From positions 3,658,001-3,722,000 of the forward strand of contig NZ_JABBFX010000001.1 of NCBI RefSeq assembly GCF_012927085.1: a DNA stretch of 64,000 nucleotides, written 5' to 3'. A program made the position numbers and the translations under genes. This DNA comes from Ramlibacter agri. Lineage in GTDB: Bacteria > Pseudomonadota > Gammaproteobacteria > Burkholderiales > Burkholderiaceae_C. Positions 31,898-36,181 of the stretch are shown in pieces. The notes below the pieces were generated by a model, which saw only the letters and a program-made list of their open reading frames with translations, was not told the origin of the DNA and searched no databases. The first letter of the stretch is position 1, and the number at the start of each line of letters is the position of its first letter.

Positions 31898-31974
31898 CGG
31901 AGCGTAGCGCAGTCTGGTAGCGCATCTGGTTTGGGACCAGAGGGTCGTAGGTTCGAATCCTATCGCTCCGACCA
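31898..31974 (+). tRNA. tRNA-Pro (anticodon TGG)
   Basis: A 77-base gene with a 7-bp acceptor stem CGGAGCG (31898-31904) and CGCTCCG (31964-31970), anticodon stem TCTGG/CCAGA with loop TTTGGGA, a T-arm with GGTTCGAATCC, and encoded CCA at 31972-31974. TACAAT at 31882-31887 is a likely -10 element, ten bases before the mature end. Confidence 0.96.
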
Positions 31975-32275
31975 TTCTTCACCCGCCGCGGGCAGCGGCG
32001 CGGCTTCCGCATGAACACTTGCTTCGAGACAAAGCTTGAGCGTTTGTGTGCGATTGCATCAGGCCATGGACTTGGCTTAGGGCGTTGCCCTATAAACATT
32101 CCTCAGCGATGACGCACATCGTGTCGCTCGAATAGGCGGCCTGCGAAGAACGACGAGGCACAGGGCCGCGGGAGATTCGATTCCTGGTTGACACAACGCG
32201 AGGCAAGCGCCCAGCTTTCCTCCGGAGGGAAAGCCATGTCTGCGATCCGTTCGATGCGAGGCAGTCCGCAGTTCC
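31975..32275. other. Region between tRNA-Pro and the SecA-like gene
   Basis: No established gene. It is visibly richer in A and T than its surroundings. It contains TTGACA at 32188-32193 without a matching -10, a strong ribosome site GGAGGG at 32224-32229 serving a 15-codon reading frame, and a 33-codon frame with three Cys (32011-32112) that lacks a ribosome site. I see no integrase remnant and no repeat of the tRNA 3' end. Confidence 0.4.
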
Positions 32276-32283
32276 ATGTCTAG
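32236..32283 (+). CDS. Possible 15-residue leader peptide coupled to the SecA-like gene
   Basis: GGAGGG lies 6 bases before ATG 32236. The frame reads MSAIRSMRGSPQFHV and ends at TAG 32281-32283, eight bases past the ATG of the SecA-like gene (32276), which has no good ribosome site of its own. Such an overlap is typical of translational coupling. It might be a leader peptide or, less likely, a small substrate of the neighbouring enzymes. No homologue is known to me. Confidence 0.3.
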   Translation: MSAIRSMRGSPQFHV

Positions 32284-33976
32284 GCGCGCCTTGCCCTTCG
32301 ACCAGGCGGTGCTGGCCCCGGGCCGGCCCTATGCCGAACGCGCGGAGGAGGACACCCGCTGGCCCGACGCGATCGCGCGTGCGCTGCACGCGGGCACGGT
32401 GGCGCCGCTGCTGCGCGCGGTGGCGGCCTTCACGCCCGAGCGCGAGCGGCTGGTCGCGGCGGTGGCGGTGCGCGAGGAAACCCTGCGGCTGCTTTCCGAC
32501 GAAGTGCTGCGCCAACGCGCCCATGCGCTGCGCGCGCGGCTGCGCCGCCATGGCTTCACACTGGATGCCGCGGCCGAGAGCTTCGCGCTGGTGCGCGCCG
32601 CCGCCCAGCGGACGCTGGGCCAGCGCCACTTCGACACGCAGCTCATAGGCGGCTGGGCGCTGCTGCGCGGACGCCTGATGGAGATGGCCACCGGCGAGGG
32701 CAAGACCTTCTGCGCCACGCTGCCGGCCTGTGCCGTGGCCATGGCGGGCTATCCGGTCCACGTCATCACGGTCAACGACTACCTGGCGCAGCGCGACGCC
32801 GAGAAGATGGAGCCGCTGTATGCCTACTTCGGTTTCGGCGTCGGCGTGGTGTCGCAAGGCATGGACCGGGCGGCGCGGCGCGCGGCTTACGCGAAGCCCG
32901 TCACCTACGTCACCAACAAGGAACTGGCCTTCGACTACCTGCGCGACGGCGTGGCGCTGCAGGGGCGCAGCAGCCGGCTGCACCAGGCGCTGGCCGAGGA
33001 GGGGCGCGACGACGGCCCTGTGCTGCGCGGCCTGTACTTCGCCATCGTGGACGAGGCCGACAGCGTGTTCGTCGACGAGGCGCGCACGCCGCTGATCCTG
33101 TCGGCCAGCAGCGGCGACGAGGCGGCGGCGGCGGAACAGCTGATCGAACTGAAGGAAGGCGTGCCGCCCACGACGCGGCGCGACACGCTGGCGCGCCTGA
33201 CCTACCAGCGCCTGTTCCGCCGCTACGTGCACCTGGCCGGCATGACGGGTACGGCGGCCGAGGCGTCCGCCGAGATCCGCTCGGTGTACGGGCTGGAGCT
33301 GGCACGCATCCCGCTGCACCGGCCTTCGCAACGCGCGGAGTGGGGCGTGACCTGGTGCGGCAGCGTGGCAAAGAAGTGGGAGCTGGTTGCTGCGGCCGTG
33401 CATCGGGTGGCGATGTTGCAGGGGCGCCCTGTGCTGGTCGGCACGCGCTCGGTGGCAGCCTCGGAGCAACTGAGCGCGGTGCTGCGCGCCTTCGGCGTGC
33501 CGCATGCGCTGCTCCATGGCAGGCAGGATGCCGAAGAGGGGGAAGTCGTGGCGCAGGCCGGGCAGCCGGGACGCGTCACGGTGGTCACCAACATGGCGGG
33601 CCGCGGCACGGACATCCCGCTGGGTGCCGGCGTGGAGGCGCGCGGCGGCCTGCACGTGATCCTCACCGAGTACCACGACTCGCGCCGGGTCGACCGCCAG
33701 CTGGTGGGCCGCTGCGCGCGCCGGGGCGACCCCGGCAGCTGCGAAGCCATCGTGTCGCTGGAAGACGAGATCTTCGCGGTGTGCGCGCCGCGCACCAGCG
33801 CCTGGCTGCGGCGCCTGAGCAATGGCGGCCTGGTGCCGCCGCCCTCGGCGTTGCAGGCGCTGCGCGCGTGGTGCCAGCAGGCGACCGAGCGCCGCCACAG
33901 CGCGACCCGCCGCGCGAACGTGCGGCAGGACCGCCAACTGCATCGCTCGCTGGCCTTCGCCGGGAGCAGCGAGTGA
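32276..33976 (+). CDS. Truncated SecA-like translocase ATPase lacking the preprotein cross-linking domain
   Basis: The 566-residue protein has both SecA motor halves: Walker A TGEGKT (139-144), TVNDYLAQRDAEKM (165-178), DEAD (259-262), AGMTGTA (321-327), PVLVGTRSVAASEQL, NMAGRGTDIPLGAG and DRQLVGRCARRGDPGS. In housekeeping SecA about 150 residues (the PPXD clamp) lie between DEARTPLI and EAKEGV; here only about 20 residues (LSASSGDEAAAAEQLIELKEG) separate them. The helical scaffold, two-helix finger and zinc tail that follow motor 2 in SecA are also nearly absent. It is therefore an intact ATPase without the known protein-conducting parts. It overlaps the following methyltransferase as GTGA. 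Function unknown. Confidence 0.82.
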   Translation: MSRRALPFDQAVLAPGRPYAERAEEDTRWPDAIARALHAGTVAPLLRAVAAFTPERERLVAAVAVREETLRLLSDEVLRQRAHALRARLRRHGFTLDAAAESFALVRAAAQRTLGQRHFDTQLIGGWALLRGRLMEMATGEGKTFCATLPACAVAMAGYPVHVITVNDYLAQRDAEKMEPLYAYFGFGVGVVSQGMDRAARRAAYAKPVTYVTNKELAFDYLRDGVALQGRSSRLHQALAEEGRDDGPVLRGLYFAIVDEADSVFVDEARTPLILSASSGDEAAAAEQLIELKEGVPPTTRRDTLARLTYQRLFRRYVHLAGMTGTAAEASAEIRSVYGLELARIPLHRPSQRAEWGVTWCGSVAKKWELVAAAVHRVAMLQGRPVLVGTRSVAASEQLSAVLRAFGVPHALLHGRQDAEEGEVVAQAGQPGRVTVVTNMAGRGTDIPLGAGVEARGGLHVILTEYHDSRRVDRQLVGRCARRGDPGSCEAIVSLEDEIFAVCAPRTSAWLRRLSNGGLVPPPSALQALRAWCQQATERRHSATRRANVRQDRQLHRSLAFAGSSE

Positions 33977-34854: not shown

Positions 34855-34858
34855 AGCC

Positions 34859-36127
34859 ATGGACCGCGCCTTCCTGTTCGAGGAACATGCTTCGGTGCTG
34901 CCGCACTGGGTGGGGCGGCACGTGCACGGCGCCACGCTGGTCTGCCTGGACGCGCACCTGGACCTGCAGTTCATCGAGCCGGCGCGCATCGCGCAGCTGC
35001 GCGCGTGCCGGGATGCCGCGGCCGTCGCTGCGCTGGAGAGCCCGCATCCGCTGAGCCCGCGGCGCGACGCCTGCTACGGCATCGAGGACTTCCTCTATGC
35101 CGCGGCGCAGCTGGGCGTGGTCGGCCGGCTGGTGTGGGTGGCGCCGCCGCACGTGCTGGCGGAGATGGGCGCCGCGCTGCGTGCGCTGCGCCAGATGGAA
35201 GGCGTGACGCCCGAGGACATCGCCTCGTTCCAGCGCATGCCTGGCGGCTGGTTCGAAGGCCGGCTGCTCGGTGTGGAACTGGTCGTGGGCGCCCTCGAGG
35301 AACTGGTCGCGCTGCCGCTGCCCGAGCCGGTGCTGGTCGACATCGACACCGACTATTTCGTGCAGGTGCCGGAAGACCGCCTCTGGGTGCGGCCGCAAGC
35401 CGTGCTGCGCCAGTTGCGCAACTGGCTGGGCGCAGGGCGCGAGCTCACCATCGCCCGCTCGGTGAGCTCCGGTTTCCTGCCGCTGCGGCATCGCTTCGTG
35501 TCGGACCTGCTGGCCGCGCTGTGGGAAGGCCGGGCCGAGGACGTGGCCCATGGCCAGGGCCTTCTCGACATGGAGCTGTCCGGATTGCCGCTGCCCGCGC
35601 TGCCAGGCAACGACGACCTGCTGCGCCGGCTGGGCGAGATTCGCGCCCACGGCCGGCCGGTGGACCTGGCGAGCGTGCTGGCATTGCGGCGCGAAGTGGA
35701 GCGGTCCGAAGAGGACGGCGAACGCCGGGCGACCGAGTGGATCCTGCTGGGCCAGCTGTATGCCGCCTTCGGCAACGCAGCCGAGGCCAGCGAATGCCAC
35801 GAACAGGCGGAGATCGCCTTCGGCGGCCACCCCGACCTGGCCCTGCAAGTGGGCAAGCTCGAACTGGCGGCCGGCCATCCGCAGGAGGCGCTGCCGTGGC
35901 TGCACCTGGCGGCCCAGGACGATGAAACGCGGGTGGCGGCCTGGTACCACCTGGCCCTGTGCGCCGCGGCCCTCAACGACCCCGCGCAGGGCTGGCGCTG
36001 GGCCCATGCGGCGCATGAGGCAGCGCCGGCCTGGGACGGCTGCGGCCAACTGGAGCGCGTGCTGGCCGGCGCGGCGGCCCAACCGGGTTACGATCACGCC
36101 CTGGCTGCCCGTAGCTCAGTTGGATAG
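34859..36127 (+). CDS. UPF0489 family (arginase-like) protein with TPR-like C-terminus
   Basis: The 422-residue product begins with an arginase-like domain: EEHASVLPHW, then LVCLDAHLDLQF with Asp31, His33 and Asp35, and VLVDIDTDYF with Asp161 and Asp163. These are the two metal-binding strands expected of a ureohydrolase fold, in the arrangement of UPF0489. To my knowledge the peptide arginases that turn Arg into ornithine in some ribosomal peptides belong to this family, so a peptide-modifying role is possible. Residues from about 275 show helical TPR-like repeats (WILLGQLYAAFGNAAEASECHEQA). The stop codon TAG lies inside the downstream tRNA-Arg gene (23-bp overlap), so its last residues are encoded by tRNA sequence. 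Confidence 0.72.
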   Translation: MDRAFLFEEHASVLPHWVGRHVHGATLVCLDAHLDLQFIEPARIAQLRACRDAAAVAALESPHPLSPRRDACYGIEDFLYAAAQLGVVGRLVWVAPPHVLAEMGAALRALRQMEGVTPEDIASFQRMPGGWFEGRLLGVELVVGALEELVALPLPEPVLVDIDTDYFVQVPEDRLWVRPQAVLRQLRNWLGAGRELTIARSVSSGFLPLRHRFVSDLLAALWEGRAEDVAHGQGLLDMELSGLPLPALPGNDDLLRRLGEIRAHGRPVDLASVLALRREVERSEEDGERRATEWILLGQLYAAFGNAAEASECHEQAEIAFGGHPDLALQVGKLELAAGHPQEALPWLHLAAQDDETRVAAWYHLALCAAALNDPAQGWRWAHAAHEAAPAWDGCGQLERVLAGAAAQPGYDHALAARSSVG

Positions 36128-36181
36128 AGCACCTGCCTTCTAAGCAGGTTGTCGGGGGTTCGATTCCCTCCGGGCAGGCCA
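36105..36181 (+). tRNA. tRNA-Arg (anticodon TCT)
   Basis: A 77-base gene: acceptor strands CTGCCCG (36105-36111) and CGGGCAG (36171-36177), D-arm AGCTCAGTTGGATAGAGC, anticodon stem CCTGC/GCAGG with loop CTTCTAA, T-arm GGTTCGATTCC and encoded CCA at 36179-36181. The last 23 bases of the UPF0489 reading frame run into its 5' end. Confidence 0.95.

Follow-up and report, generated by a model that had tools for sequence, protein, structure and literature searches.

What brings a SecA-like motor gene, a methyltransferase gene and a gene for a peptide-arginase-like metallohydrolase together between two tRNA genes? The question arises at positions 31898 to 36181 of a 64,000-nucleotide stretch of Ramlibacter agri DNA (the window; contig NZ_JABBFX010000001.1 of assembly GCF_012927085.1, positions 3,658,001 to 3,722,000), where the three genes are called A, B and C below. 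A preliminary description, made from the window alone, had taken the trio as one system. The comparison with related genomes indicates that the genes do belong together, but hardly as a self-contained pathway: the cassette is very probably the deletion remnant of an operon of about 40 kb, devoted to one LEPR-XLL giant protein and its export. The features that carry this reading, all on the + strand, are the following.

31898-31974, +: tRNA-Pro(TGG), left border (ARAGORN, Rfam)
31975-32235, +: relic 5′ region, putative promoter and leader of the lost giant gene (alignment to G030 and G011)
32236-32283, +: 15-codon relic open reading frame (ORF) MSAIRSMRGSPQFHV, a giant start joined to the end of the M50/HlyD gene (comparison with G030 and G021)
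32276-33976, +: gene A, SecA-like motor with NBD1 and NBD2 only, lacking the preprotein cross-linking domain (PPXD) (domain searches, homologue alignment)
33130-33145, +: junction of the in-frame deletion of about 101 PPXD residues in A (blastn breakpoints 33137/33139)
33973-33976, +: GTGA stop/start overlap remaining after excision of the HlyD gene (cl3) (comparison with G021 and G009)
33973-34854, +: gene B, S-adenosylmethionine (SAM) methyltransferase with a GTG start (Methyltransf_11; closest solved relatives 3bus and MitM)
34859-36127, +: gene C, UPF0489/peptide-arginase-like metallohydrolase with a TPR tail (ligand residues, weak UPF0489 and TPR matches)
35580-35611, +: junction of the in-frame shortfall of about 43 TPR residues in C (comparison with G021)
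36105-36181, +: tRNA-Arg(TCT), right border, containing the stop codon of C (ARAGORN, Rfam)

A encodes 566 residues and C 422. The tight packing described at first is real, with a 4-bp overlap of A and B and a 4-bp gap between B and C, but the genes do not fill the tRNA interval, as about 300 bp between tRNA-Pro and A are left free. The stop codon of C lies 23 bp inside tRNA-Arg, and C also ends within this tRNA gene in G021 and G014. Here and below, G numbers denote genomes of the genus (G000 is the source of the window, G021 Ramlibacter ginsenosidimutans, G014 R. montanisoli and G009 R. algicola), L numbers denote fetched loci and P numbers listed proteins.

The intact operon in relatives

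In four relatives (G021, G014, G030, G011), the gap between the same two tRNA genes is filled by an operon of 37-51 kb with a constant gene order: LEPR-XLL giant, SapC, GAF-HlyD, PqqD/M50-HlyD, SecA-like and HlyD, followed in two of the four by B and C. The gap of G021 contains gene X (258 residues, on the opposite strand and divergent from the giant), a giant of 8,773 residues, SapC, GAF-HlyD (619), PqqD/M50-HlyD (716), a SecA-like protein of 670 residues that carries the PPXD, HlyD (289), B and C; from the giant through C, the intergenic gaps as called do not exceed 69 bp. G014 has the same gene set with several frames broken, while G030 and G011 combine giants of 13,913 and 11,780 residues with the exporter genes and are without X, B and C. 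The LEPR-XLL motif scores above the NCBIfam cut-off in the giants of G021 and G030 and, by genome search, also in those of G011, G014 and G009; in G009 the operon lies away from the two tRNAs. Outside the genus, Massilia sp. H-1 (L037) has the genes from SapC through C. Both there and in the R. montanisoli locus L013, consecutive module genes have broken frames, through decay or sequencing error.

The genome of the window itself has six matches to the LEPR-XLL model NF012209, all on contigs C2, C3 and C4; contig C1 has none, and no LEPR-XLL giant lies near the cassette. Three further A loci in this genome keep GAF-HlyD, M50-HlyD and HlyD, with LEPR-XLL starts within 50 kb. The matches at C4:65871 and C3:968304 stand in open frames of 18,621 and 17,696 residues. 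In another module of this genome (L023 7720-7792), ARAGORN places a tRNA-Phe inside a called HlyD gene, possibly a false positive or an overlap.

Judged from its parts, the ancestral module would have exported the giant. The PqqD/M50 protein of G021 reaches 148 bits against a daptide metalloprotease model (cut-off 300) and its PqqD match is below cut-off; its plasmid counterparts are annotated as PqqD family peptide modification chaperones. As the SecA-like gene belongs to the LEPR-XLL module, the cargo was probably a giant protein and not a small peptide. This alters the earlier suggestion of a system that modifies and moves a peptide, of which the modifying half retains support in the metal ligands of C (see below).

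Junctions left by the deletions

The region at 31975-32235 aligns with those between tRNA-Pro and the giant start in G030 and G011 (261 bp in the window, 260 bp in G030), sharing the blocks TTGCCCTATAA, TCGAATA, GGGAGATTCGA and GAGGG. The relic ORF that follows begins with MSAIRSMR, resembling the giant start MSNVRSLR of G030, and ends with QFHV, resembling the end SQFHV of the M50 gene of G021; it overlaps A by 8 bp, and the same 8-bp overlap onto A is found in G030 and G011. Such a composite ORF indicates that a single fusion removed the giant, SapC and both large HlyD proteins. A search for small ORFs had been proposed in the preliminary description, and the sole one with a strong ribosome-binding site proved to be this fusion of giant start and M50 end. 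The reading of 32236-32283 as a precursor peptide was rejected, and the locus yielded no precursor gene of a ribosomally synthesized and post-translationally modified peptide (RiPP), the small ORF before A being a relic.

The second junction lies between A and B. In the relatives, A and HlyD (cl3) overlap by stop and start in ATGA, as HlyD and B do in GTGA in G021 and G009. The window has a single GAGTGA, and therefore the HlyD gene was probably excised between the two stop/start overlaps. The idea that B starts at the former HlyD start was rejected by the same comparison; the start is B's own. Thus, the GAF-HlyD, PqqD/M50-HlyD and HlyD genes that surround A elsewhere are absent between the window tRNAs and present only as relics. 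The remaining two junctions are the loss of about 101 PPXD residues in A, in frame at position ~287 with blastn breakpoints that match L011 7049 and 7353, and the in-frame lack of about 43 TPR residues in C compared with G021.

Descent from a LEPR-XLL module is therefore indicated by the same site, the same gene order and the relic ends of missing genes. Long repetitive genes are hard to assemble, and the assembler could in principle have collapsed a giant repeat region; such an artefact is hardly credible here, as there are four separate junctions, all frame-keeping and two of them inside A and C. Nor is window A a mis-joined copy of a known homologue, because its best intact homologues are at most ~74% identical over the aligned segments. 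It is also very improbable that the trio is an independent ancestral system, inserted whole and unrelated to giant-protein export. The compact packing would suit such an origin, as would a gammaproteobacterial metagenome-assembled genome (L038) in which B and C sit with X, with no SecA-like gene within its 19.6 kb. However, the X-B-C trio of L038 adjoins a LEPR-XLL gene as well as a TolC gene, a relic giant start and M50 tail precede A in the window, and operons occupy the same site in four relatives.

The tRNA interval and the distribution of the genes

Each tRNA was used as a query against 59 genomes of the genus. At E <= 1e-20 tRNA-Arg was found in 53 and tRNA-Pro in 54, and 46 of the 54 were testable, as the two genes lie on a single contig and in the same orientation. 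The spacing is below 200 bp in 22 of the 46, 200-5,000 bp in 14 and above 5 kb in 10, so that the proposal of an insertion at these tRNAs has been borne out. Across the genus, the gap varies from 5 bp to 200 kb. It measures 4,130 bp in G000, and module genes occupy 5 of the 24 gaps of at least 200 bp (G000, G021, G014, G030, G011). The comparison of this interval among relatives, as first proposed, gave a divided answer: 15 other gaps inspected (14 by tblastn, G027 partly, plus G035) were without module genes, yet the genes stay linked at further sites and outside the genus. In G082, G064, G015 and G025, whose gaps were not inspected directly, the genomes have no A match at E <= 1e-60 and no match to B, C or X. 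The gap of G035 spans 44.6 kb with many small genes and has the look, by gene size only, of a phage or island. An integrase-carrying horizontal element was rejected for the operon, as all genes called between the tRNAs in G021, G030 and G011 are module genes or X. The flanks are homologous on both sides.

30131-31693, -: left flank gene of 520 residues, whose homologue adjoins tRNA-Pro in G011, G030 and G014
39077-45955, strand not assigned: right flank block, six genes matched and colinear with the block beside tRNA-Arg of G014

At E <= 1e-60, 16 A-family loci occur in 8 of 60 genomes of the genus. For 13 of them, a LEPR-XLL start lies on the same contig no more than 50 kb away; this leaves the window itself, a G030 locus whose contig ends about 4 kb away and a G001 locus on a 25.7-kb contig. 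B was found at E <= 1e-40 in 4 of 59 genomes (G000, G009, G014, G021) and C at E <= 1e-20 in the same four, with one distant match in G016; the co-occurrence that had been proposed as a check is thus confirmed. X is present in 3 of 59 (G009, G014, G021), and the source genome has no second copy of B or C at those limits. The distant G016 protein (L014 8650-10200), of UPF0489-TPR type, has a DNA polymerase III alpha-type gene next to it, and the 20 kb inspected there contain no module gene.

Beyond the genus, C is rare: counting the source genome itself, it was found in 2 of 399 genomes of the family and 1 of 369 of the class, with only the first few candidates per genome scored. A genome scan with the C sequence alone gave no match. 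Contig sharing in metagenomes was assessed on lists of 120 rows each for C and A, from which 4 C rows and 2 A rows were omitted (own or named Ramlibacter contigs, or no contig given). The two lists have 8 contigs of at least 5 kb in common (matched by size), against 0.15 expected by a shifted control. Among the listed rows, C and X have no contig in common, and A and X have one.

Gene A and the constraint on the three genes

A matches SecA_DEAD (PF07517, 1.6e-93) and P-loop_SecA (PF21090, 6.1e-43), and both motor domains, NBD1 and NBD2, are present. SecA_PP_bind (PF01043) has no match in window A and matches G021 A at 1.6e-23. Among the best 120 of 8,000 scored A homologues, the window's own row included, PF01043 is missing from that row only: the 119 others keep 101-105 residues at the PPXD position, and window A has none. 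The stretches MATGEGKT, DEADS, MTGTA and NMAGRGTDI are intact, while four conserved sites have changed: N414H, A415G and K416R (NAK to HGR), and Q483R, in motif VI. Cassette DNA is also matched by 40 plasmid records, the ten listed of which all match inside A only (query 598-1795).

Without its cross-linking domain, A could also have turned into a minimal unfoldase or remodelling ATPase of a new type, with a peptide or protein as the substrate that it handles together with B and C. The intact motifs and the kept frame would suit it, and the changes at conserved motor sites could be adaptive. Such a gain of function is nevertheless quite improbable, as the domain is present in all the other listed homologues, its loss coincides with that of the membrane partners, and Q483 and N414-A415-K416 are altered.

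How far selection still holds the three genes was approached by branch counts with G009 as the outgroup. Amino-acid changes specific to the window versus G021 number 58 versus 31 in A (chi-square 8.2), 24 versus 25 in B and 42 versus 48 in C; the third codon positions of A give 88 versus 94. Over 120 proteins, 9 of 210 columns conserved to at least 97% are changed in window A, which ranks first (the next has 6 of 211); for window C it is 1 of 50, at rank 34 of 120. In the tree, the window A branch measures 0.346 versus 0.118 for its sister P0122 (support 0.869). A 7,245-base contig is listed for both P0122 and P0029, the neighbour of window C in the C tree, which makes an intact sister probable. 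We infer that A is moderately relaxed and that B and C are near normal.

These values bear on whether the remnant is wholly non-functional, with all three genes pseudogenes of recent origin that have simply not yet suffered a break in frame. The loss of the cargo, of most exporter genes and of X would agree with such decay, as would the first rank of window A in deviation, to which the four changed sites contribute. On the other hand, amino-acid changes are not in excess in B and C, the deletions keep the frame, and the 1,281 codons of A, B and C together contain no internal stop. This explanation is possible but doubtful.

Points against the proposed collapse

Several observations weigh against the reading of the cassette as the remnant of an exporting operon, or against parts of it. 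The branch counts cover the whole window branch, including the time before the collapse. In a set of six sequences, the columns invariant in the other five number 273 for window A, which deviates at 14 of them, and G009 gives the same figure (14/273); G021 deviates at 9 of 268, and the C3 paralogue at 35 of 294, more than window A. The pairwise ratio of nonsynonymous to synonymous rates (dN/dS) of A between the window and G021 (0.342) is not above that between G021 and G009 (0.366); in the window-G021 pair, B has 0.38 and C 0.48. The window C branch of 0.449 versus 0.307 for P0029 has a support of only 0.222, so its placement is weak. Shorter TPR forms of C occur elsewhere (P0070, P0077, P0081), and the shortening of C may thus predate the collapse. 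The collapsed form is found in one genome only, which makes its timing uncertain. Promoter and terminator consensus sequences were not found in 31850-36350. Finally, X is absent from the window genome and present with B and C in three other Ramlibacter loci, so that B and C may lack a partner here. The mixed rate tests of A leave the probability of the deletion history unaffected, because that history rests on the junctions and on synteny.

Genes B and C

B matches Methyltransf_11 at 5.6e-20. The UPF0489 label first given to C has stood in part: the Pfam match is below the cut-off of 27 (E 0.0033, 18.3 bits), but all six metal ligands of a peptide arginase are kept (H10, D31, H33, D35, D161 and D163), together with the adjacent E9. 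The TPR match is also weak. UPF0489 is matched at E <= 0.001 by 10 of 23 aligned members of the C family, the best at 3.9e-7. These residues are the ones described for the peptide arginase OspR, which has six metal ligands and a Glu next to His (PMC10028609); BipC, another UPF0489 enzyme, has similar motifs (PMC12707348).

A search of the PDB with the N-terminal domain of C alone gave no match. With the whole-C profile 136 matches were obtained, and in 60 of the 136 that were considered, no best stretch covered the hydrolase domain. A phage, plasmid or viral origin of C was rejected, as no match was found in phages, in plasmids (query G021 C) or in viral contigs (C-family alignment).

Gene X and possible tailoring

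The X profile finds as its top PDB match the LynF/TruF/PatF peptide prenyltransferase 9vtd (E 0.014 for the whole sequence, 2.7 for the best single stretch), and it also matches SunS (E 0.31) and DciF (E 1.1). A 243-aa hypothetical protein directly after HlyD on a Pontibrevibacter plasmid (L131 14497-15228) belongs to the X family (pairwise hhalign probability 99.4%). At least five X relatives among 120 listed carry a DUF3467 domain (P0351, P0355, P0356, P0359, P0360), confirmed in the N-terminal part of the three that were scanned, and a separate DUF3467 gene takes the place of SapC on both alphaproteobacterial plasmids discussed at the end.

The features of B, C, X and the PqqD/M50 protein, each sub-threshold or indirect, together point to a peptide-type modification. 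A bolder idea can be offered tentatively, rather unlikely as it is as a whole: X, B and C would be a RiPP-like tailoring set for LEPR-XLL proteins, each about 10,000 residues long. The PqqD-like domain would read the N-terminal motif of such a protein and the fused M50 protease would cut it; only after modification would the trimmed SecA motor push the protein into an HlyD/TolC conduit. The window would then be a natural knock-out that keeps two tailoring enzymes and a domain-less motor. The Arg content of the giants shows no useful difference between operons with B and C (2.41% in G021) and those without them (2.75 and 2.96% in G030 and G011).

Proposed course of the collapse and its meaning

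As the comparison with the relatives shows, the operon lay between two formerly adjacent tRNA genes, with X divergent from the giant and the order giant, SapC, GAF-HlyD adaptor, PqqD/M50-HlyD, SecA-like motor, HlyD adaptor, B and C. A first deletion joined some 8 initial codons of the giant to the terminal codons of the M50 gene. A second removed the HlyD gene between the two stop/start overlaps, and a third the cross-linking domain of A; C is without part of its TPR region. The frame is kept in each case, and X has been lost. The old promoter and leader of the giant would now drive A, B and C as translationally coupled genes. A could presumably no longer grip or export cargo, and any role left to it would be that of an ATPase stub or a coupling frame. 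B and C may still work as enzymes, whose substrates could be a small molecule or the products of LEPR-XLL modules at other places in this genome; they have the appearance of tailoring genes stranded on the promoter that once served the giant.

The locus thus links a trimmed SecA-like gene to LEPR-XLL giants with open frames of up to 18,621 codons. It also draws attention to a recurrent accessory set with peptide-modification signatures, X-B-C, which occurs together in the genus. Such a natural deletion shows which parts can be lost together and hints at which accessory genes can outlive the cargo. RiPP precursors are far smaller than giant proteins; if the tailoring of the giant is true, RiPP-type chemistry would reach proteins far larger than those precursors. 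The cassette is most useful as a guide to the intact LEPR-XLL operons and the X-B-C set.

Comparison with known systems

Among the open-access papers listed for LEPR-XLL, for its neighbour domain DUF4347 and for combinations of the exporter parts, no account of the export of such proteins is evident from titles and abstract openings, subscription papers being outside this scope. The closest solved relatives of B are the methyltransferases 3bus, which we take to be RebM, and MitM (E 7e-25 and 2e-24); the operon context of B differs from theirs. The match of X, which the window lacks, to the LynF/TruF/PatF prenyltransferases (9vtd) is weak and partial.

With OspR and BipC, C shares E-E-H, D-x-H-x-D and D-I-D-x-D-Y-F. 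The full motifs EEH(N/H)EAF and LDIDLDYFSC are not kept, as C has EEHASVL and VDIDTDYFVQ. C differs from both enzymes by EEHAS in place of EEH(N/H)E, by its TPR tail and by its giant-export operon, in which no precursor peptide gene was found.

With SecA and SecA2, A shares NBD1 and NBD2, and solved SecA is matched at E 1e-100. The alignment stops near residue 563 of 765 in 8ya0, so the C-terminal part of SecA is missing in A, as in the relatives of about 670 residues. Window A is additionally without the cross-linking domain and falls below every NCBIfam SecA cut-off listed.

The nearest counterpart is the LEPR-XLL module itself (NCBIfam NF012209, LEPR-8K; Pontibrevibacter plasmid NZ_CP049813.1), of whose motor-like gene window A is the counterpart. 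The Pontibrevibacter plasmid and Ramlibacter have the same order: giant, SapC or DUF3467, RND/HlyD adaptor, PqqD/M50-HlyD, SecA-like and HlyD. The giant gene of that plasmid, of 31.8 kb, is publicly annotated as LEPR-XLL. On a Pseudosulfitobacter plasmid this order recurs, but the last HlyD gene is absent, and the 38.2-kb giant gene is annotated only as coding for an Ig-domain protein. Compared with these modules, the window is without the giant, SapC, both large HlyD proteins, the small HlyD adaptor and the cross-linking domain of A, and it retains B and C, extra genes that accompany only some LEPR-XLL modules.

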